Source of the DNA: Streptomyces sp. McG3
Lineage (GTDB): Bacteria > Actinomycetota > Actinomycetes > Streptomycetales > Streptomycetaceae
Assembly (NCBI RefSeq): GCF_018619185.1
Contig: NZ_JAAXYC010000006.1
Location: forward strand, 1 to 64,000
Direction: 5' to 3'
DNA: 64,000 nucleotides
Both the position numbers and the translations under genes were made by a program. The stretch's first letter is position 1; each line of letters begins with the position of its first letter. A model generated the notes under the pieces. That model was not told the origin of the DNA. It did not search any database and saw nothing but the letters and a program-made list of their open reading frames with translations. Positions 8,497 through 33,791 of the stretch are shown piece by piece.

Positions 8497-9657
8497 ATGA
8501 CTGCTCCCTCGCACGGTCAAGAGGTCGTCCCGAAGTTTCGGGGCCCTGCCACCACCGCACCCCTGGGGGTCGAGTTGAGTGAACGGGAAACATCGGTCCA
8601 CCCCGATACGCGACGCCGGGCCCCCGCCGCCCATGTGACGCTCGACGCGGTGGCGCGCGAGGCGGGCGTCTCGCTCGCCACCGCGTCCCGGGCGCTGAAC
8701 GGCACCACCCGGGTCCGCGACGATCTGCGCGGGCGGGTCCGCGCGGCGGCCGATCTCCTCGGCTACATCCCCAACGCCCACGCCCAGGCCCTAGCGAGCC
8801 CCGAGGGCAACCGTACGGTCGGACTGATCTGCCACGATGTCGGCGACCCCTACTTCGCGGGCATCGCCAGTGGAGTGATGCGCGCCGCCGCCGAGCAGGA
8901 CCTGCTGGTGATGCTGGCCTCCACCTTCCGTGAACCCGCCCGGGAGATCGCGTACGTCTCGATGCTGCGGGCCCAGCGGGCCCGGGCCATCCTGCTGATC
9001 GGCTCCGGCTTCCAGGACCGCGCCTGGGAGCGGGCGATGGACGCGGAGCTGGAGCCGTATGTCCGGGCGGGCGGCCGGGTCGCGGTGGTCAGCCGGCATC
9101 GGAGCATGCGGGTGGACACGGTGCAGCCGGAGAACCGGGCCGGGGCCGCAGCGCTCGCGGCCTCACTGGTGGCGCTGGGACACCGGGACTTCGCGGTGCT
9201 GAGCGGGCCGCCCGAACTGACCACGGTGGCCGACCGGTTGGCGGGGTTTCGCGAGGGGCTCGCCCGGGCGGGCATCACTCTGGAGCGGGTGGTGCGGGGC
9301 GCGTTCACCCGGGAGGGCGGACACGCGGCGGCGCGAGCACTGCTGGCCTCCGGGGGTTCGCGACCGACCTGTGTGTTCGCGGTGACCGACGTGATGGCCG
9401 TCGGCGCGCTCGCCGCGCTGCGGGAGGCCGGCGTACGCGTCCCCGATGACATGTCGCTCGCGGGGTTCGACGACATCCCCGTCGTACGTGAGGTGTCGCC
9501 GCCGCTGACCACGGTGGCGCTGCCGCTCACGGAGATGGGCGAGCAGGTGATCGCCCTCGCGTTGCGGACGCCGTCGGGGGCGGGACGCTCCCGGGTGCTG
9601 CGGATCGAGGGGAACGTGGTCCTGCGGGGCAGCACCGGTGCTCCGCCCGGGAGTTGA
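8497..9657 (+). CDS. LacI-family transcriptional regulator
   Basis: This protein of up to 386 residues has a LacI helix-turn-helix, VTLDAVAREAGVSLATASRA, followed by the hinge-like GYIPNAHAQALASP and a periplasmic-binding-protein-type effector domain (TVGLICHDVGDPYF to the end). The HTH begins near residue 47 rather than near the N-terminus as usual, so translation may really begin at a TTG near 8575. The ATG at 8497 has AAGGTG about 12 bases upstream. It is divergent from the NMT1-type importer, with palindromic operators in the gap and a matching one before the ThuA gene at 601. The effector is probably a sugar or sugar derivative. Confidence 0.9.
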   Translation: MTAPSHGQEVVPKFRGPATTAPLGVELSERETSVHPDTRRRAPAAHVTLDAVAREAGVSLATASRALNGTTRVRDDLRGRVRAAADLLGYIPNAHAQALASPEGNRTVGLICHDVGDPYFAGIASGVMRAAAEQDLLVMLASTFREPAREIAYVSMLRAQRARAILLIGSGFQDRAWERAMDAELEPYVRAGGRVAVVSRHRSMRVDTVQPENRAGAAALAASLVALGHRDFAVLSGPPELTTVADRLAGFREGLARAGITLERVVRGAFTREGGHAAARALLASGGSRPTCVFAVTDVMAVGALAALREAGVRVPDDMSLAGFDDIPVVREVSPPLTTVALPLTEMGEQVIALALRTPSGAGRSRVLRIEGNVVLRGSTGAPPGS

Positions 9658-21349: not shown

Positions 21350-24109
<2,760 letters not shown>

Positions 24110-24168: not shown

Positions 24169-25119
24169 ATGTACGGTGCGCAGCATCTGCACGAGTTCGG
24201 CGGCCTTCCGGTCGTCGACTTCCAGCACACGTCCGACGGGGGCGCCCGGCCCGCCGCGGACGCCGTGGCCTGGCGTGTCTCCGTCGACCCGTACGACGAC
24301 GACCGGCCCTGGGAGGAGGAGTTCGCCGATTTCCTGGACAAGGTCGACCCGGCCGGCGTCCGGGCCCTGGTCATCGGCCAGTGGGGCGAGGCGTACGAGG
24401 AGACCTCGGCCGTGCCGATCGGCCTGGTGATCGCCGCCGCCGACCGGCTGGCCTCGCTGGAGGCGGTGTTCGTCGGGGATCTGGAGGCGGAGCAGGCCGA
24501 GATCACCTGGATCCAGCAGTCGGACGTGACCCTGCTGCTGGCCGCCTTCCCCGCGCTGACGGAGTTCGGCGTGCGCGGCGGCTCCGAGCTGGTGTTCCCG
24601 CCGGCGAAGCACGAGCGGCTGCGGGCGCTGACCGTCCAGGCGGGCGGTCTCCCCGCCGAGGTGGTGCGGGGTGTGCTGGACAGTGAACTGCCCGCGCTGG
24701 AGCGGCTGGACCTCTGGCTCGGTGTGTCCGCCTACGAGGGCGACACCGACCTCGCCGACCTCGCTCCACTGCTCGCCGGCACCCGTTTCCCCCGGCTGAA
24801 CCACCTGGGCGTGCGCAACAGCGAGATCCAGAACGAGATCGCGTCGGCCGTCGCCTCGGCTCCGCTGGTCGCCCAGCTGCGAGTGCTCGACCTGTCGAAC
24901 GGGACCCTGGGCGACGAAGGCGCGGCCGCCCTCCTGGAAGGACAGCCTCTGACCCATCTGGAACTCCTCGATCTCCACCACCACTTCCTCTCCGATGCGT
25001 TGGCGGAGCGGGTCCGTTCCGCCCTGGAGCCGCACGGCGTGCGGGTCGATCTCTCCGAGAAGTGCGAGCCCTGGGGCGACCGGGGTGCCGAGGGCCGCTA
25101 CACCGCCGTCTCGGAGTAG
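24169..25119 (+). CDS. STM4015-like leucine-rich-repeat protein, copy 1
   Basis: This 316-residue soluble protein belongs to the STM4015-like family of leucine-rich-repeat proteins. It has repeats such as LPALERLDLWLG, FPRLNHLGVRNSEIQNEIA, QLRVLDLSNGTLGDEGAAAL and HLELLDLHHHFLSD. After the repeats comes a short tail ending RYTAVSE, almost the same as the end of the next gene (RYVAVSE). The ATG at 24169 is preferred over a TTG at 24130, because GGAG lies about ten bases upstream. It is the first gene of a six-gene cluster with an ATP-grasp protein, a phosphatase-fold protein and two radical SAM enzymes. LRR proteins usually bind partners; a role as scaffold or substrate is inferred. Confidence 0.85.
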   Translation: MYGAQHLHEFGGLPVVDFQHTSDGGARPAADAVAWRVSVDPYDDDRPWEEEFADFLDKVDPAGVRALVIGQWGEAYEETSAVPIGLVIAAADRLASLEAVFVGDLEAEQAEITWIQQSDVTLLLAAFPALTEFGVRGGSELVFPPAKHERLRALTVQAGGLPAEVVRGVLDSELPALERLDLWLGVSAYEGDTDLADLAPLLAGTRFPRLNHLGVRNSEIQNEIASAVASAPLVAQLRVLDLSNGTLGDEGAAALLEGQPLTHLELLDLHHHFLSDALAERVRSALEPHGVRVDLSEKCEPWGDRGAEGRYTAVSE

Positions 25120-25124
25120 GCGTG

Positions 25125-26084
25125 ATGACGTATCCCGGCATCCGGCATCCCGACCGCTTCCACGGACTGCCGGTCCACACCCCGGCGCTGTCGTCCGGGT
25201 CCCTGCCCGCCGCCGACTCCGTCGCCTGGCGGCTGGAGTGCGCCTACGACGAGGACACGGACTTCCCCGCGCTGTGGGAGCAGTTCCTCGACACGGTGGA
25301 CACGACGCGGGTCCGGGCGCTCCTCATCGGCCCCTGGTGGCGTCAGGACTACACCCCGTTCGCCCCGGTGATGGAGCTGCTGGTCGCGCACGCGGACCGC
25401 TTCCCGGCCCTGCGCGGGCTCTTCCTCGCCGATGTGGTGGGCGAGGAGTGCGAGGTCTCCTGGCTGCGGATGTGCGACGTCACCCCGGTGCTGGAAGCGC
25501 TGCCGCTGCTGGAGGAGTTCGCCGTGCGCGGCTGCGGTCAGCAGGGGCTGGGGTTGCGCCCGCTGCGCCATGCGGCGCTGAAGTCGCTGCGCTTCGAGTC
25601 CGGGGGCCTGCCCGGCTCTTCGGTGCGGGCGGTCGCCGCGAGCGAACTGCCCGCGCTGGAGCGTCTGGACCTGTGGTTCGGCAGTTCGTGGTACGGCGGC
25701 GACGCCACCCTCGACGACATCCGGCCGGTCCTGTCGGGGGGCGTGTTCCCCCGGCTGCGCCATATGGGGCTGCAGAACAGCGAGATCCAGGACGAGATCG
25801 CCGCCGCCGTGGGTTCCGCGCCCGTCGTGGCCCAGTTGGAGACCCTGGCGCTGTCGATGGGCACCTTGAGCGACGCGGGCGGCGAGGCCCTGGTGAACGG
25901 GCAGCCCCTGAGCCACCTGGCCACGCTCGACCTGCGCCACCACTACCTCACCGAGCCGGTGCTGGACCGCGTCAGGGCCGCGTGCGCCCCGGCGGTCGTC
26001 GAGGCGGGCGAGGCCGAGGACGACTACGCGGACCCGGACGACGAGGACGACGAACCGGAACGCTATGTCGCGGTCAGTGAGTAG
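25125..26084 (+). CDS. STM4015-like leucine-rich-repeat protein, copy 2
   Basis: This 319-residue paralogue of the preceding gene shares SELPALERLDLW, NSEIQ-EIA, GQPLSHLATLDLRHHYL and other blocks. It opens with PGIRHPDRFHGLPVHTPAL. Before the conserved C-terminal RYVAVSE it carries a very acidic linker (ADPDDEDDEPE). The start ATG at 25125 is five bases after the previous stop, with GGAG eight bases upstream. Tandem copies are unusual because many such loci have one. The last 20 bases overlap the ATP-grasp gene. Confidence 0.87.
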   Translation: MTYPGIRHPDRFHGLPVHTPALSSGSLPAADSVAWRLECAYDEDTDFPALWEQFLDTVDTTRVRALLIGPWWRQDYTPFAPVMELLVAHADRFPALRGLFLADVVGEECEVSWLRMCDVTPVLEALPLLEEFAVRGCGQQGLGLRPLRHAALKSLRFESGGLPGSSVRAVAASELPALERLDLWFGSSWYGGDATLDDIRPVLSGGVFPRLRHMGLQNSEIQDEIAAAVGSAPVVAQLETLALSMGTLSDAGGEALVNGQPLSHLATLDLRHHYLTEPVLDRVRAACAPAVVEAGEAEDDYADPDDEDDEPERYVAVSE

Positions 26085-27222
26085 CGGCGGGGACGGCCCG
26101 GTGCCGCGCTTCGCGGTCGTCGGCAATCCGGACAACCGCCGGGTCGCCTTCTTCGAGGAGGCCGTACGCTCCGCCGGCCTGCCGCCGGCCCGGGTGGTGC
26201 CCTGGCTCCGGGTGCTGCGCGGTGAGGCGGTGTTCTCACCGGGCGAGAGCGTACGGATCGATTCGCCCGGTGAGGACGCCGAGGTGGAGCGGCTCCTCCG
26301 CGGGGTCGACGACCCGACCCGGGTGGAGGGCTCGGCCCGGTGGTACGCGCGCTTCACCGCGGCGGTGGACACGGTGGCGGGCGCGGCCTCGGCCGCCGGC
26401 GCCGAGGTGCTGGGCTCCCCCGGTGACATCGCCGTGCTCTTCGACAAGCGGCTGTGCCACGGGCTCCTCGACCGCGCGGGGGTCCCCGTGCCGGCCTCGC
26501 CGACATCGGGCCCGGGGGCGGCCCCGGTGCACGGCTGGTCCGACGTACGGGAGTTGCTGCGCGGGCACCGGATGCCCCGGGCGTTCGTGAAGCTCGCGCA
26601 CGGCTCATCCGCCTCCGGGGTGCTGGCGGTGGAGACGGCGGGTCCCGGCCGGGTCCGGGCGACCACCTCCGTGGAGCGGGACGCGTCGGGCCGGCTGTTC
26701 AACTCGCTCCGGGTGCGGCGCTACACCTCGGAGGCGGAGGTCGGCGCGGTCGTGGACGCGCTGGCCCCCGACGGGCTGCACATCGAGCGCTGGCTGCCGA
26801 AGGCGTCCCAGCGGGGGCGGGCCGCGGATCTGCGGATCGTGGTGGTCGGCGGCCGGGCGACGCACGCCGTGGTGCGGACGAGCACGAGCCCCATGACCAA
26901 TCTGCATCTGGGCGGAGCGCGCGGCGACCTGGACGAGGTCCGGGCCGCCGTGGCGGCCGCCGGCGGCTGCTGGCGCGAGGCACTGGCGATGTGCGAGCGG
27001 GCGGCGGCCTGCTTCCCCGGGACGCCCTGCGTGGGCGTCGACCTCCTGCCCACGGCCGGCTGGCGGCGCTTCGCCGTCGGCGAGGTCAACGCCTTCGGCG
27101 ATCTGCTGCCCGGACTGACCGGTCTGCCGGGCAGCGGCGCCGAGGGCCTGAACACCTATGCGGCGCAGGTCGCCGCCGTACTGGACCGAGCAAGGAACCA
27201 CCGTGCCGCCACCCCTTCCTGA
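26065..27222 (+). CDS. STM4014-like ATP-grasp family protein
   Basis: This 385-residue protein has ATP-grasp traits: FDKRLCHGLLDRAGVPVPAS, the flexible nucleotide loop FVKLAHGSSASGVLAV, LHIERWLPKA and, near the end, GVDLLP with the metal-binding EVNAFGDLLPGL. ATP-grasp enzymes join a carboxylate (activated as acyl phosphate) to an amine, alcohol or thiol. The substrate is unknown. Context suggests a step on a peptide tail or a small acid made by the neighbouring radical SAM enzymes. The ATG at 26065 overlaps the LRR gene by 20 bases; GTG 26077 is an alternative start. Confidence 0.85.
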   Translation: MSRSVSSGGDGPVPRFAVVGNPDNRRVAFFEEAVRSAGLPPARVVPWLRVLRGEAVFSPGESVRIDSPGEDAEVERLLRGVDDPTRVEGSARWYARFTAAVDTVAGAASAAGAEVLGSPGDIAVLFDKRLCHGLLDRAGVPVPASPTSGPGAAPVHGWSDVRELLRGHRMPRAFVKLAHGSSASGVLAVETAGPGRVRATTSVERDASGRLFNSLRVRRYTSEAEVGAVVDALAPDGLHIERWLPKASQRGRAADLRIVVVGGRATHAVVRTSTSPMTNLHLGGARGDLDEVRAAVAAAGGCWREALAMCERAAACFPGTPCVGVDLLPTAGWRRFAVGEVNAFGDLLPGLTGLPGSGAEGLNTYAAQVAAVLDRARNHRAATPS

Positions 27223-28096
27223 CCCCGACACGTCCCCGCTGCCCGGCGGTTCCGGCCGGCCCGACATGGGCGAGGTCGTGGGCAGCCACGATCTGCTGCT
27301 GGTCACCCTGGACACCTTGCGGTACGACGTCGCCGTCGAGCTGGCGGCCGCCGGGCGGCTCCCCCACCTCGCCCGGCATCTGCCCGGGGGCGGCTGGGAG
27401 GAGCGGCATGCTCCGGGCAGCTTCACCTACGCCTCGCACCAGGCGATGTTCGCCGGTTTCCTGCCGACGCCCGCCTCCCCGGGGCCGCATCCCCGGTTGT
27501 TCGCGGCGCGGTTCGCGGGCAGTGAGACGACGGCGGACGGCACGTTCGTGTTCGACACGCCGGATCTGGTGTCGGGGCTGGCCGCCGAGGGCTACCGCAC
27601 GGTGTGCGTCGGCGGGGTCGGCTTCTTCAACCGTCGGGGGCCGCTCGGATCGGTGCTGCCCGGGATGTTCCAGGAGAGCCACTGGGAGCCCGGCTTCGGC
27701 GTCGCCTCGCCCACCTCGTTCGAGGAGCAGGTCGCCCGGGCGGAGCGGGTCGTCGCGGCGCTCCCCCGGGAGCAGCGGCTGTTCCTCTTCGTCAACGTGT
27801 CAGCCCTGCATCAGCCGAACTGGTTCCATCTGCCCGGGGCGACCCGTGAGGCGGGCGATTCCCGGGCCACGCACGCGGCGGCCCTGGAGTACGTGGACCG
27901 GCACATCGGCCGGCTCTTCGCCGCGGCGAGCAGCCGTCGCCGGTGCTTCGCCATCGTCTGTTCGGACCACGGCACCGCCTACGGCGACGACGGCTACACC
28001 GGTCACCGGCTCGGCCACCCGGCCGTGTGGACCGTCCCGTACGCCCACTTCTTCCTCGAACCACCCGCACCGCTCGCTCCGGGGGCAGCCCGATGA
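27203..28096 (+). CDS. STM4013-like alkaline-phosphatase-superfamily hydrolase
   Basis: This 297-residue protein has the sulfatase/alkaline-phosphatase fold marks: LLLVTLDTLRYD (metal Asp near 37) and SDHGTAYGDDGYTGHRLGH. It has no export signal. Where sulfatases carry the C/S-x-P-x-R formylglycine site, it has FTYASHQAMFAG with Thr75 aligned to the nucleophile. That fits phosphodiesterase or phosphotransferase members better than formylglycine sulfatases, so 'sulfatase' is a family name here, not a predicted activity. GTG 27203 is chosen because AAGGA precedes it by about six bases; it overlaps the ATP-grasp gene by 20 bases. The stop forms an ATGA junction with the next gene. Confidence 0.86.
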   Translation: MPPPLPDPDTSPLPGGSGRPDMGEVVGSHDLLLVTLDTLRYDVAVELAAAGRLPHLARHLPGGGWEERHAPGSFTYASHQAMFAGFLPTPASPGPHPRLFAARFAGSETTADGTFVFDTPDLVSGLAAEGYRTVCVGGVGFFNRRGPLGSVLPGMFQESHWEPGFGVASPTSFEEQVARAERVVAALPREQRLFLFVNVSALHQPNWFHLPGATREAGDSRATHAAALEYVDRHIGRLFAAASSRRRCFAIVCSDHGTAYGDDGYTGHRLGHPAVWTVPYAHFFLEPPAPLAPGAAR

Positions 28097-29487
28097 CCAC
28101 CAACGTCGCCGCGGAAGCGGCCACCTCCGTCCGGCCGTACGAGAGTTACGTCTACGCCTATCCGCACAAGACGGCCTACCGGCCGCTGGAGGACCGCCCG
28201 TCGCTGCGGTCGCTGTGGGCGGCGGAGCCCAAGGACGCGCTCTCCCTCTATCTCCACATACCGTTCTGCGAGGTCCGCTGCGGCTTCTGCAACCTCTTCA
28301 CCAGGATCGGCGCGCCCGAGGAGCTGACGACGCGCTATCTGGACGCGCTGGAGCGGCAGGCGCTCTCCGTGCGGGACGCGCTGGGCGACGGGGGGCCGGT
28401 GCGGTTCGCCGCGGCGGCGTTCGGCGGCGGCACGCCGACGTTCCTGACCGCCGGGGAGCTGGAGCGGCTCTGCGACATAGCGGAGAAGCGGATGGGCGCC
28501 GACCTGCGCTCGGTGCCGCTGTCGGTGGAGACCTCCCCGTCCACGGCGACGGCGGACCGGCTGGCGGTGCTGGCCGACCGGGGCACGACGCGGATCAGCA
28601 TCGGTGTGCAGAGTTTCGTGGACGAGGAGGCGCGGGCGGCCGTCCGTCCGCAGCGCCGCGCCGATGTGGAGGCGGCGCTCGGCCGGATCCGCGAGGCCCG
28701 GATCCCGGTGCTGAACATCGACCTGATCTACGGCATCGACGGGCAGACCGAGCGCAGCTGGCTCGCCTCGCTGGACGCGGCGCTGGCCTGGCGGCCGGAG
28801 GAGCTGTATCTGTATCCGCTGTACGTGCGCCCGCTCACCGGCCTGCACCGCCTGGGCGCGGCGGCCGGTGAGCGGGCGCGGGCGGAGACGGAGTCCCTGG
28901 AGCAGGCCGCCTGGGACGAGCAGCGGCTGCGGCTGTACGCGGTGGGGCGGGACCATCTGCTGGCGCACGGCTACGAGCAGGTGTCGATGCGGATGTTCCG
29001 GCGGACCGATGCCCCCCGGGAGCAGGAGGGTCCCGAGGACTACGCCTGCCAGACCGACGGCATGATCGGCCTCGGCTGCGGGGCCCGTTCGTACACGGCG
29101 GCCCTGCACTACTCCTTCGACTACGCGGTGGACATGCGGGAGATCCGGTCGATCATCGACCGGTTCACCGCCACCGAGGACTTCTCCCGGGCGGAGGTCG
29201 GCCGGTACGTCGACGCGGACGAGGCGCGACGGAGGCATCTGCTGCAGTCGCTGCTCCAGGCGGCGGGGCTGCCGGTGGCGGACTACCGGGCGCGGTTCGG
29301 AACGGATCCCGGCGCGGATTTCCGGGCCGAGCTGGCGGGGTTCGCGGCCCGGGGCTGGCTGGACGGGACGGCGCCGGACGGTCTGCTGAGGCTGTCCCCC
29401 TCGGGCCTCGCCCACTCCGACGCGCTGGGTCCCGCGTTGTTCTCCCCCGGGGTGCGGGCCGCGATGGCCGCGTACGAGCGGAAGTGA
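28093..29487 (+). CDS. STM4012-like radical SAM protein, HemN/HemW-related
   Basis: This 464-residue radical SAM enzyme has LYLHIPFCEVRCGFCNLFT with cluster ligands C59, C63 and C66 (CX3CX2C), a glycine-rich AAFGGGTPTFLT that helps bind SAM, and ISIGVQSFVDEEARA as in the HemN/HemW fold. It lacks the extra Cys of the HemN CxC. The C-terminal domain (HLLQSLLQAAG onward) resembles the HemW-type cap. It starts in an ATGA overlap with the phosphatase-fold gene. Heme or haem-related chemistry is not implied; the family occurs in the STM4011-STM4015 gene set of unknown role. Confidence 0.88.
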   Translation: MTTNVAAEAATSVRPYESYVYAYPHKTAYRPLEDRPSLRSLWAAEPKDALSLYLHIPFCEVRCGFCNLFTRIGAPEELTTRYLDALERQALSVRDALGDGGPVRFAAAAFGGGTPTFLTAGELERLCDIAEKRMGADLRSVPLSVETSPSTATADRLAVLADRGTTRISIGVQSFVDEEARAAVRPQRRADVEAALGRIREARIPVLNIDLIYGIDGQTERSWLASLDAALAWRPEELYLYPLYVRPLTGLHRLGAAAGERARAETESLEQAAWDEQRLRLYAVGRDHLLAHGYEQVSMRMFRRTDAPREQEGPEDYACQTDGMIGLGCGARSYTAALHYSFDYAVDMREIRSIIDRFTATEDFSRAEVGRYVDADEARRRHLLQSLLQAAGLPVADYRARFGTDPGADFRAELAGFAARGWLDGTAPDGLLRLSPSGLAHSDALGPALFSPGVRAAMAAYERK

Positions 29488-29494
29488 CGGGGCC

Positions 29495-30418
29495 ATGGAC
29501 CTGACGATTCTCTACCGGGGCCCGCTCGCCTCCTGCGACTACGACTGTCCGTACTGCCCGTTCGCCAAGCGGCGGGACAGCCGCGCGCAGCTCACGGCGG
29601 ACCGGGAGGCGCTGGAGCGGTTCACCGGCTGGGCCGCGGAGCGGACCGGTGACCGGCTGTCCGTGCTGTTCACCCCGTGGGGCGAGGGCCTGGTGCGCTC
29701 CTGGTACCGGCGGGCGCTGACCGATCTTTCGCGGCTGCCGCACATCGGGCGGGTGGCGATCCAGACGAACCTGAGCTGCCGCACCGACTGGCTGGCCGAC
29801 GCCGATCCGGAGCGGATCGCGCTCTGGTGCACGTACCACCCGGGGCAGACGCCGTACGAGCGGTTCCTGGGCAGGTGCCGGGAGCTGTCCGCGAAAGGGA
29901 TCCGCTACAGCGTCGGCGTGGTGGGGTTCGACGAGCACCTCGACGAGGCGCGGCGGCTGCGGGCGGCGCTGCCGGGCGAGGTCTACCTCTGGGTGAACGC
30001 CGCCGAGGGGCACACCTACACCGACGAGGAGGCGGCGCGGTGGACGGAGCTGGATCCGCTGTTCCCCTACAGCCGTGATCCGCACCGTTCGGCGGGACTG
30101 CCCTGCCGGACGGGCGAGTCGGTGATCTCGGTGGACGGCGACGGCACGGTGCGGCGTTGTCACTTCGTCGAGGCGGAGCTGGGCAATCTCTACGACGGCA
30201 GCTACCGCCGGGCGCTCGGCCCGCGGGCCTGTCCGCTCGCCGTGTGCGACTGCCACATCGGATATGTGCATCTGGAGTCGCTGCCGCTGTACGACGTGTT
30301 CGCGGGCGGTGTCCTGGAGCGGATACCGGCAGGACACCCTCCGGGCGCGGGCACGCCGCCGGACGGGCTCGTGGTGCCGGGCCCGTCCCGGCGTGCGCTT
30401 CCCCTGCTGGAGTCCTGA
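29495..30418 (+). CDS. STM4011-like radical SAM protein with SPASM-like Cys
   Basis: This 307-residue radical SAM enzyme has SAM-cluster ligands C14, C18 and C21 in LASCDYDCPYCPF. Its C-terminal third has Cys at 204, 222, 246, 251 and 253 (RRCHFVEA; ACPLAVCDCHIGYVHL), spaced as a possible auxiliary iron-sulfur cluster of SPASM type, common in enzymes acting on peptides. It has no signal or membrane segments. It begins eight bases after the previous radical SAM gene and ends 12 bases before a convergent SGNH hydrolase gene. The substrate is unknown. Confidence 0.87.
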   Translation: MDLTILYRGPLASCDYDCPYCPFAKRRDSRAQLTADREALERFTGWAAERTGDRLSVLFTPWGEGLVRSWYRRALTDLSRLPHIGRVAIQTNLSCRTDWLADADPERIALWCTYHPGQTPYERFLGRCRELSAKGIRYSVGVVGFDEHLDEARRLRAALPGEVYLWVNAAEGHTYTDEEAARWTELDPLFPYSRDPHRSAGLPCRTGESVISVDGDGTVRRCHFVEAELGNLYDGSYRRALGPRACPLAVCDCHIGYVHLESLPLYDVFAGGVLERIPAGHPPGAGTPPDGLVVPGPSRRALPLLES

Positions 30419-31416: not shown

Positions 31417-32370
31417 TCAGACGGAGACACCGTGCTGACGCAGGTACGCGATCGGGTCGACGTCCGAGCCGTAGCTCGGGCCGGTGCGGACCTCGAAGTG
31501 CAGGTGCGGGCCGGTGGAGTTGCCGGTGGAGCCGGAGAGGCCGATCTGCTGGCCGCCGGTGACGGTCTGGCCGACGGAGACGTTGAGCGAGGTCTGGTGG
31601 GCGTACTGGGAGTACATGCCGTCCTCGTGCTGGATGACGACCTCGTTGCCGTACGAGCCGCTGTTGCCGGCCGAGACGACGGTGCCCGGGCCGATGGCCA
31701 GGACCGGGGTGCCGGAGGCGGCCTGGAAGTCCGAGCCGGTGTGATAGCCGCTGGACCAGCTGGCGCCCGAAGCCCGGTACTGGGTGGTGACGTTGGCGCT
31801 GGCCAGCGGGGCGGACCAGCCGGAGCCGGTGGCCTCGGAGGAGCCGGTCCGCGCGGAGCTGCCGGAGCCCTCGGAGTCGTCGGCGGAGACGGTGTCCGCC
31901 TTCGGGGCCTCCTTCTTCGGGGCCTTCGGCGCCGGTGCGGCCTTCTTCGGGGCGGCCTCGGGAGCCGCGGACTTCTCGGCCGGGGCGGAGCCCTTGGCGC
32001 CGAGGGTCAGCTTCATGCCCGGGTGGATCAGGCCGGGGTTCTCGCCGACGGTGGAGCGGTTGTCCTGGTAGAGCTTCTCCCACCCGCCCTTGAGCTGGTG
32101 CTCGGCCGCGATCTTCGCCAGGTAGTCGCCGGAGACGACGGCGTACGTCTTCGGGGCGGCCTTCGACGCGGCGGGGGCGGCCGGGGCGGTGTGCGCGGCG
32201 GCGACCGAGGCGGCGGCGGGCTTCGCGGCCGGAGCGGCCTGGTCCGCGGCGCTCGCGACGGTGGCGCCGATGAGCGGGAGGGCGAGTGCGGCGCCGCCGG
32301 TCCCTGCGGCGAGGACGCCGCGGGAGATCGGGCCGGACTTCGGACGACGGTGCTTACCCTTTGCGGGCAT
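31417..32370 (-). CDS. Secreted LysM / M23 peptidoglycan endopeptidase
   Basis: This 317-residue exported protein has a basic N-terminus with a hydrophobic signal segment (ending near AASVAS/ASA), a LysM domain around 74-125 (TYAVVSGDYLAKIAAEHQLK, then WEKLYQDN and NPGLIHPGMKL) and a charged Ala/Lys/Pro linker. A lysostaphin-type M23 domain follows, with YHTGSDF and HLHFEV zinc motifs. It likely cleaves cross-bridges in the cell wall and binds glycan through LysM. GGAGAGGAA precedes the ATG. The leader contains a c-di-AMP riboswitch, matching many Streptomyces wall-remodelling genes, so expression should fall when c-di-AMP is high. Confidence 0.93.
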   Translation of the reverse strand: MPAKGKHRRPKSGPISRGVLAAGTGGAALALPLIGATVASAADQAAPAAKPAAASVAAAHTAPAAPAASKAAPKTYAVVSGDYLAKIAAEHQLKGGWEKLYQDNRSTVGENPGLIHPGMKLTLGAKGSAPAEKSAAPEAAPKKAAPAPKAPKKEAPKADTVSADDSEGSGSSARTGSSEATGSGWSAPLASANVTTQYRASGASWSSGYHTGSDFQAASGTPVLAIGPGTVVSAGNSGSYGNEVVIQHEDGMYSQYAHQTSLNVSVGQTVTGGQQIGLSGSTGNSTGPHLHFEVRTGPSYGSDVDPIAYLRQHGVSV

Positions 32371-32516: not shown

Positions 32517-32978
32517 GTGGGTGGGTGCGAATTCCGGGCGGCGGCAGGATTAGGCGGTCCGTCCGGATTGCGGCGACCGTAAACGAGTGAGGACGAGCGG
32601 AACAAGCCACCGGTTGCGCACCGGAATCATCGATTCGATTTCGCCCCGGATTTCCCGTCACACTCCGTGGATTACGGATCTTGGATTTCCGTGCGGGCCA
32701 GGGGAATACTCCGGGGCGCGCTCACCACGGACCGTCACGGGTATGATCCCGCTCACCTCCAAAATCCCATCTCCCCCATTAGCGGGGCATGTTCTGCGAA
32801 ATGCACCAATACGGACATGCAGTCGACCTCACCCCTGACGCCGGGTCAGGCGGGCCGCCTCGACACCCCGCACCGGGGCGCGCGACCGTGATGATTTTCC
32901 GTCGAATCGATGTCGTATCGTCACGGGAGCGCCCTCGCCGGCGAGCCGCGCCGACGCCAGAGATCCCCAGGAGCCACC
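32517..32978. other. Divergent intergenic region between endopeptidase leader and phosphatase
   Basis: This stretch should contain the promoter of the riboswitch-controlled endopeptidase (minus strand) and of the tyrosine phosphatase gene (plus strand). No convincing coding frame, operator or strong hairpin was seen. The middle (about 32600-32800) is relatively AT-rich compared with its surroundings. Confidence 0.45.
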
Positions 32979-33791
32979 GTGACGCAGCAGGTGCCGCAGG
33001 TCCCGCCGACAGAGACCGCGCTGACCGGAGTCCGCAACTTCCGCGACGTGGGCGGGCTCCCCACCGCGGACGGCCGGCGCACCGCATTCGGGCGGCTCTA
33101 CCGGAGCGGCCACCTGGCACACGCCACGGCCGAGGACGCGGCTTTCCTCGGCGGGCTCGGGCTGCACACGATCTTCGACTTCCGCCACTCCGCCGACCAC
33201 CGGCTCGACGGATACGACATCGAGCTGGCCGGTGTCCGCAATGTCAGCATTCCGCTCTCGGACCCGGCCAACGGCGCGGAGTTCTGGCGGCTGGTGAGCG
33301 CCGGGAACATCGAGCAGCTGCGCTCGGTCCTCGCGAACGGCAAGGGCGTCGACCGCATGATCCGGATGTACCGCGCGACGATCGAGGACCGCACCGCCGA
33401 GCACAGCCGGGTGCTGCACTCCCTGGCCGAGGACAGCGTCCCCGCCCTGATGCACTGCGCGGCGGGCAAGGACCGGGCCGGTCTCTCGATCGCGGTCGCC
33501 CTGCTGGCGGTCGGCGTCGGGCCGGAGGCGATCGAGGAGGACTACCTCAAGTCCAACGACCCCCACCGCCGCTACGCCGTGAAGCGCTCCGACGCGTCCG
33601 ACACCGGCATGTCGCCCGAGGTGCTGGAGCTGCTGGACCCGCTCTTCGGGGCGCGGCCCGCCTACCTCGCGGCGGCCTTCACCGCCATCGAGGAGAACTG
33701 GGGAACGACGGACCGCTACCTGTCGGAGGGGCTGAAGGTCTCCCCCGAGACCCGGGAGCGGCTGCGTGAGCGCCTCCTCGACCAGGGCTGA
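32979..33791 (+). CDS. Tyrosine-protein phosphatase family protein
   Basis: This 270-residue protein has the active site HCAAGKDRAG, with Cys160 as nucleophile and Arg166. It is preceded by GVRNFRDVGGLPTADGRRTA, the signature of the bacterial Tyr/lipid phosphatase group (MptpB-like/Tyr_phosphatase_3). GTG 32979 is the start, with AGGAG about five bases upstream. Substrates of the group include phosphotyrosine proteins and phosphoinositides; the true one is not clear. A hairpin follows the gene. Confidence 0.92.
   Translation: MTQQVPQVPPTETALTGVRNFRDVGGLPTADGRRTAFGRLYRSGHLAHATAEDAAFLGGLGLHTIFDFRHSADHRLDGYDIELAGVRNVSIPLSDPANGAEFWRLVSAGNIEQLRSVLANGKGVDRMIRMYRATIEDRTAEHSRVLHSLAEDSVPALMHCAAGKDRAGLSIAVALLAVGVGPEAIEEDYLKSNDPHRRYAVKRSDASDTGMSPEVLELLDPLFGARPAYLAAAFTAIEENWGTTDRYLSEGLKVSPETRERLRERLLDQG

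Follow-up and report, generated by a model that had tools for sequence, protein, structure and literature searches.

A conserved C-terminal glutamate makes the leucine-rich repeat protein of the STM4011–STM4015 gene cluster a candidate carrier for its ATP-grasp ligase

A passage of PMC10433800 gives the C-terminal glutamate (Glu) of the carrier protein LysW as an attachment site, and one in PMC9303977 describes for pearlin how a residue is added to the C-terminus of a carrier and is then modified by a radical SAM enzyme and other enzymes; the LysW and pearlin carriers thus show that such C-terminal chemistry exists. Here we analyze a cluster of six genes of the STM4011–STM4015 families in a stretch of 64,000 nucleotides from Streptomyces sp. 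McG3 (assembly GCF_018619185.1, contig NZ_JAAXYC010000006.1, positions 1 to 64,000; hereafter the window), in which two leucine-rich repeat (LRR) proteins of the STM4015 family precede an ATP-grasp ligase, a hydrolase, and two radical SAM enzymes. STM4015 proteins end in a conserved tail that nearly always closes with Glu, and we tentatively favor a reading that falls a little short of evenly balanced: STM4015 is the carrier, STM4014 loads its C-terminal Glu, and the radical enzymes and the hydrolase finish the product. The genes and the tail codons lie in the window as follows.

24169..25119, plus strand: STM4015 family LRR protein, copy 1, 316 amino acids (NF038076, 382 bits, cut-off 275)
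25093..25116, plus strand: codons of the C-terminal tail of copy 1, GRYTAVSE, without overlap with the next gene
25125..26084, plus strand: STM4015 family LRR protein, copy 2, 319 amino acids (NF038076, 370 bits, cut-off 275)
26058..26081, plus strand: codons of the C-terminal tail of copy 2, ERYVAVSE, partially overlapping the start of the ATP-grasp gene
26065..27222, plus strand: STM4014 family ATP-grasp ligase, 385 amino acids (NF038074, 454 bits, cut-off 175)
27203..28096, plus strand: STM4013/SEN3800 family hydrolase of the sulfatase/alkaline-phosphatase superfamily, 297 amino acids (NF038075, 429 bits, cut-off 250)
28093..29487, plus strand: STM4012 family radical SAM enzyme, HemN-like, 464 amino acids (NF006067, 640 bits, cut-off 380)
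29495..30418, plus strand: STM4011 family radical SAM enzyme with a cysteine-rich C-terminal part, 307 amino acids (NF038073, 420 bits, cut-off 200)

The locus shares with LysW/ArgW and LysX/ArgX a C-terminal Glu on the carrier and a ligase of the same ATP-grasp fold class; unlike in those systems, the carrier here would be an LRR protein of about 300 residues, and two radical SAM enzymes are present. LysZ and LysY form the kinase–reductase pair of the LysW system, whereas the six genes include no pair of this type. RimK, a ligase of the same fold class, adds Glu to the C-terminus of ribosomal protein S6 (5ZCT/5ZK6, Z 23.7/23.3 against the STM4014 model), but the cluster described here gives its ligase an LRR partner of its own and adds radical SAM enzymes and a hydrolase, all within one fixed operon. 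Graspetide systems (PsnB/PsnA2, PruB) combine an ATP-grasp enzyme with a ribosomal substrate, a role that by analogy STM4015 may fill. The graspetide core consists of repeated Thr/Ser plus Asp/Glu, whereas the STM4015 tail has a single invariant acidic residue and no such core, STM4015 is about 300 residues long, and no short precursor gene lies by the ATP-grasp gene. According to a section of PMC8939145, graspetide ATP-grasp enzymes are sometimes accompanied by SPASM radical SAM enzymes. Appending to the C-terminus of a carrier followed by radical SAM action, as proposed here, would parallel the PEARL/pearlin pathway, although NCBIfam and Pfam searches find no PEARL (LanB-like) enzyme among the six genes and an ATP-grasp enzyme stands in its place. 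The cluster thus differs from the LysW and pearlin systems in having neither their carriers nor, among its six genes, their partner enzymes.

Among the closed STM4015 frames, 161/163 terminate in Glu, mostly within the pattern R-[YF]-x-x-V-x-E behind a variable linker; Glu together with Tyr or Phe at -6 is found in 156/163 frames, including 148 of the 150 actinobacterial ones, and Arg at -7 in 154/163. The 163 frames are the 167 collected minus four genes fetched twice (L086/L090 and L088/L091), with which the counts become 165/167 for Glu and 152/154 actinobacterial frames for both features. Own-genome duplicates (L001, L002, L087, L089) and two frames with an open end or a score below 60 bits were dropped, while an Escherichia coli STM4015 gene annotated as frameshifted (L111 5001-5848, where the enzyme genes carry no such flag) was counted through its C-terminal piece. 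The two frames without Glu are L075, which ends in SA, and one piece of a frame-broken gene in L069, the other piece of which ends in RYVAVDE. An alignment of 13 STM4015 proteins from six phyla (Actinomycetota, Pseudomonadota, Deinococcota, Bacillota, Bacteroidota, and Cyanobacteriota) has 25 invariant columns; the last Glu is among them, and no other tail residue is. The first records examined end in RYTAVSE and RYVAVSE (window), YRSIAVSE, WRYVALGE, WRFVALGE, WRYPSLTE, YMNAMYTE, and WYYPMITE; enteric tails read YMNAMYTE, YMNPMFTE, or YMHAMYTE, and YRSIAVSE is the Methylobacterium tail. Entropy falls from 2.69 bits at -20 to -9 to 1.21 bits at -8 to -1 (144 distinct tails), whereas the control termini of STM4014 (3.06 bits), STM4013 (2.64 bits), and STM4011 (3.08 bits) remain high. 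Low terminal values also occur in STM4012 (1.50 bits) and in two neighboring genes introduced below, encoding a DUF6745 protein (1.04 bits) and a small protein (0.77 bits), but there is no drop in these three against the preceding residues (1.29, 0.99, and 0.70).

The tail is largely kept also where the STM4015 gene does not run into the ATP-grasp gene. All 60 frames located upstream of another STM4015 gene end in Glu with Tyr or Phe at -6 and use varied codons (the 60 include repeat-fetched genes and comprise 47 distinct last-30 sequences), and it is retained by seven of eight frames classed as orphans, one of them from Calothrix, the eighth being the piece of the broken L069 gene. Tandem arrays of six (L158 1015-7380) and five (L161 2532-7747) STM4015 copies were observed upstream of one enzyme set, and every copy in both keeps the tail. 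The STM4015 model shows an LRR fold with a mean predicted local distance difference test (pLDDT) score of 93.7, and the nearest solved structure is 2RA8 from Bacteroides fragilis (Z 32.5, root-mean-square deviation (rmsd) 2.5, 282 aligned residues), an STM4015 relative named 'uncharacterized' that ends in YSYPMITE. An N-terminal WGR domain (PF05406) was seen on the STM4015 protein of a Bacteroides record (L098 6513-7586).

The model of STM4014 (mean pLDDT 84.9) resembles ligases for this kind of terminus. Its nine best matches in VIA-align 2 are all ArgX, LysX, or RimK (Z 24.1-22.4, rmsd 2.6-3.0, 262-278 aligned residues), headed by ArgX with LysW (3VPB; Z 24.1, rmsd 2.6, 268 aligned) and including, among the leading ones, complexes of RimK with RpsF and of LysX with LysW-gamma-AAA. 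Eight positions (K176, E241, D255, R257, T278, N279, D326, and N342) are invariant in nine STM4014 proteins from Streptomyces to Bacteroides; we take these Lys, Glu, Asp-x-Arg, Thr-Asn, Asp, and Asn residues to be catalytic. By fold and conserved positions, STM4014 is therefore predicted to be a RimK/LysX-type ATP-grasp ligase, the resemblance being one of fold: the RimK-type sequence model TIGR00768 gives 21.7 bits, under its cut-off of 143.4.

Tail conservation is also statistically linked to the presence of STM4014. By the profile cut-offs, nine genomes are positive for STM4015 and negative for STM4014, six from a sample of 200 genomes of the window's family and three from an order sample, in which 147 newly seen genomes have any STM4015 match, 146 are over the cut-off, and STM4014 is found in 143. 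Two genomes with a weak STM4015 match only (G441 and G650) were left out of this set, and an STM4014 match split across two frames (G409) was scored as present. Degenerate or lost tails occur in four of the ten STM4015 proteins without STM4014 (PRHVAVEE, HRCTAVGD, and two proteins with no tail) versus two of 150 actinobacterial ones elsewhere (p = 1.1e-4, or 4.0e-5 without the 680-contig genome G489, in a Fisher test that ignores shared descent). The other six read HRFTAVAE, WRYAAVTE, QRYTAVDE, TRYVAVGE, DRYVAVAE, and DRFIAVAE. Because our STM4015 profile was built from full-length, tail-bearing proteins, tailless members score slightly lower, yet they are still found: proteins with a degenerate tail or none reach at least 270 bits. 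STM4011 is likewise missing in all six STM4014-less genomes checked out of the nine.

The remaining enzymes also keep conserved motifs. In eight STM4011 proteins, the CxxxCxxC motif (C14/C18/C21) and C204, C222, C246, C251, and C253 are invariant, and a search of the STM4011 profile against the PDB (E up to 1) returned only SkfB, through its C-terminal part (E 1.1e-4). This cysteine pattern is SPASM/Twitch-like and probably belongs to an auxiliary iron–sulfur domain, although Pfam SPASM, run on two STM4011 proteins, reported only the Bacteroides one, at 18.3 bits and below the cut-off of 21.5. In STM4012 the CxxxCxxC motif at 59/63/66 is invariant in eight proteins, and the nearest PDB sequences are HemN (1OLT) and NocN; the HemN equivalog model is not passed (126 bits, cut-off 325). 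Invariant in eight STM4013 proteins are D37, T75, D255-H256-G257-T258, H268, and H272, the Asp and His residues among them being presumably those expected of an active metalloenzyme of the sulfatase/phosphatase type.

In the carrier reading, STM4015 would act as a scaffold, a folded LRR platform presenting a tail of about eight residues with the terminal Glu. STM4014 would activate the carboxylate of this Glu and couple an amino compound to it, STM4012 and STM4011 would remodel the attached group or the adjoining tail, and the metallohydrolase STM4013 would take off a phosphate or free the product. The HAD hydrolase of the enteric loci would take part too, and further STM4015 copies, whether arrayed in tandem or located at another genomic site, would provide additional substrates in trans. 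We infer the covalent modification of the tail, Glu as its site, the order of the steps, and the fate of the product, attached or released. The initial annotation had suggested a peptide- or cofactor-modifying pathway; this is supported in part, namely for peptide or protein modification, by the STM4015 tail, the STM4014 model, and the STM4011 cysteines. It had also found no separate precursor peptide. Overlaps and gaps of 5-7 bases indeed leave no room for a short precursor gene within the six-gene series, but a cluster devoid of a precursor is not what the data support: the supposedly missing substrate is probably the C-terminus of STM4015 itself.

Several observations weigh against the carrier reading. 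The tail is intact in five of the nine genomes that lack STM4014, and since the degenerate-tail criterion was post hoc and the groups compared were drawn from different collections and share descent, the association with STM4014 counts as support and not as proof. The tail is predicted to be ordered and not loose (pLDDT 87-93 for the last residues), and in the 2RA8 match the aligned range extends to residue 357, the native end being 354 if the numbering of the entry starts at 1; given both, the tail may dock on the repeats in free STM4015. On the side of the ligase, DcsG (Z 21.8) ties with the ninth match and is followed by glutathione synthetase (21.4) and PPIP5K (21.1), so that the fold match does not single out a substrate for STM4014. 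Both the EDWGE motif and the zinc-binding domain of LysW are absent from STM4015, as judged from its tails and LRR fold, and no carboxypeptidase or protease that could release a product was found among the six genes with NCBIfam and Pfam.

An unlikely alternative follows the logic of ribosomally synthesized and post-translationally modified peptides (RiPPs): the radical SAM enzymes would alter or cross-link Arg, Tyr, or Glu of the tail, STM4014 would close a lactam or ester to Glu, and the tail would be cut from the repeats as from a leader. The graspetide ligase PsnB, in complex with its precursor peptide, is ranked first for STM4014 by Foldseek, STM4011 resembles SkfB, and Arg at -7 and Tyr or Phe at -6 (the latter in nearly all actinobacterial frames) are widely kept. 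The VIA-align matches for STM4014, however, are led by ligases acting on C-terminal Glu, the absence of PsnB from the 50 matches shown carrying no weight either way; the six genes include no peptidase; and Arg and Tyr are not kept across phyla, as the enteric and Methylobacterium tails demonstrate, while Glu alone is invariant in the 13-protein alignment. That only the last Glu is invariant and that the closest models of the ligase act on a C-terminal Glu favors Glu loading over modification of Arg or Tyr. A Tyr-Glu pair serves in the biosynthesis of pyrroloquinoline quinone, and a comparable role of the tail was considered and dropped, because Tyr is missing at -6 in the enteric and Methylobacterium tails.

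Rather improbable is a docking or structural function of the tail, which would join the enzymes or pack on the repeats, with the enzymes acting on a small molecule unrelated to the STM4015 chain. LRR proteins usually bind partners, and the predicted order of the tail, which is apparently modelled in 2RA8, would suit such a function; a docking motif, though, has no need of an exact C-terminal Glu kept in six phyla, and STM4015 copies away from the cluster retain the tail. Very improbable, finally, is that the tail is conserved only because the end of STM4015 shares DNA with the beginning of the STM4014 gene, 20 bases in the case of copy 2 of the window, and we rejected this because the STM4015-followed frames, seven of the eight orphans, and the tandem arrays keep the tail outside any such overlap.

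The order of the genes around the tail is itself well conserved. The six plus-strand genes of the window lie where the initial annotation had placed them, and its junctions are confirmed from the coordinates: in order, a 5-base gap, two 20-base overlaps, a 4-base ATGA overlap, and a 7-base gap (GTG 27203 was used as the start of STM4013; ATG 27158 is possible as well). The family search it proposed for each protein places all six over curated NCBIfam cut-offs (STM4015 twice, STM4014, STM4013/SEN3800, STM4012, and STM4011), whereas only Sulfatase (hydrolase, 6.5e-8) and Radical_SAM (HemN-like enzyme) exceed their own cut-offs in Pfam. Two outcomes had been named as speaking against the annotated cluster, assignment of all six genes to a known pathway and scattering of the genes in Streptomyces relatives: the NCBIfam and Pfam profiles give no such pathway, and the genes are not scattered. 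Scanning genome contigs with the STM4011 protein gave 560 related stretches, of which the 80 best, almost exclusively from Streptomyces, were kept; 76/80 carry the unbroken series STM4015-4014-4013-4012-4011 on a single strand, the other four being interrupted by contig ends. STM4015 is present in two copies in 50 of the 76 ordered loci, in one copy in 25, and in three copies in one. This synteny far exceeds chance. In the family sample, 97 of the 200 genomes carry both STM4015 and STM4014 by the cut-offs, six STM4015 only, none STM4014 only, and 97 neither, so STM4015 is present in all 97 STM4014-positive genomes; across a phylum-wide sample it occurs in 6/296 genomes, that of the window among them.

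Co-occurrence in Salmonella and other bacteria, noted in the initial annotation, is borne out by the same order outside Streptomyces, for which the evidence consists of named plasmid and E. coli records and not of a census. The plasmid records are from Methylobacterium, three Deinococcus, Paenibacillus, and two Salmonella; the DNA of the Salmonella-type locus finds a counterpart in at least 154 of 5426 complete E. coli genomes, a lower bound because it is based on a DNA match, and the two such loci examined have the same order. Viral contigs, tried as a source of distant relatives, gave four weak matches (21-25 % identity) and were excluded. In the Bacteroides record L098, a deletion leaves only remnants of STM4013 and STM4012 (8541-9060), while STM4015, STM4014, and an STM4011 fused to a HAD domain are kept.

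The initial annotation had described STM4010 as a membrane protein in some loci. At that place, the Salmonella and E. coli loci examined show no membrane protein; instead, STM4011 overlaps at its end with a gene for a Cof-type HAD hydrolase; STM4010 is a HAD hydrolase, and an entry in PMC4632510 lists it as 'putative hydrolase'. In Streptomyces cadmiisoli, the gene that overlaps the STM4011 end encodes a TauE/SafE membrane protein (L108 9906-10616). The annotated interval, 24169-30418, holds for the six genes and is too short for the conserved neighborhood, to which two further genes belong, probably as accessory components:

23668..23994, minus strand: small divergent gene, 108 amino acids, probable accessory component (phrog_27831, function unknown)
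22600..23601, minus strand: DUF6745 protein, 333 amino acids, probable accessory component (PF20530, 383 bits)

Both are found together in 73/80 loci (small gene 74/80, DUF6745 73/80), and in the family sample the small gene is present in 85/97 STM4014-positive versus 4/103 STM4014-negative genomes. Streptomyces, Deinococcus, and Methylobacterium have them alongside the cluster, whereas the loci examined from enterics, Paenibacillus, and Bacteroides lack both. A PHROGs search placed both proteins in function-unknown families only, and four non-Streptomyces copies of the small protein share conserved GE[VL]TGHSHR and QREY stretches. On the other side of the cluster, an M23 peptidase gene (PF01551, 112 bits, 31417-32370, minus strand) lies directly downstream on the opposite strand and a tyrosine phosphatase family gene (PF13350, 209 bits, 32910-33791, plus strand) farther downstream in the window.

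The open-access literature yielded only single passing table entries for these genes under their locus names and nothing on the function or tail of the STM4011-STM4015 families or on 2RA8, and an LRR protein, a radical SAM enzyme, and an ATP-grasp enzyme were not found together in it; a word search of the main texts of PMC8939145, a graspetide survey, and PMC9062424, a radical SAM mapping, returned neither LRR nor the locus names. The five families have so far been annotated just by Salmonella locus numbers although they are widespread (STM4014 with STM4015 in 97/200 genomes of the window's family, and the set in further phyla), and a conserved C-terminal Glu beside a predicted RimK/LysX-type ligase gives this function-unknown cluster a candidate substrate and a candidate residue. 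Possibly, though on the doubtful side, the cluster represents a new class of carrier-protein biosynthesis or protein-cofactor maturation in several phyla, in which the Glu of an LRR protein would be loaded by an ATP-grasp enzyme and the attached group rebuilt by radical SAM enzymes. If the proposal is true, a folded repeat protein would join the known kinds of biosynthetic carriers.

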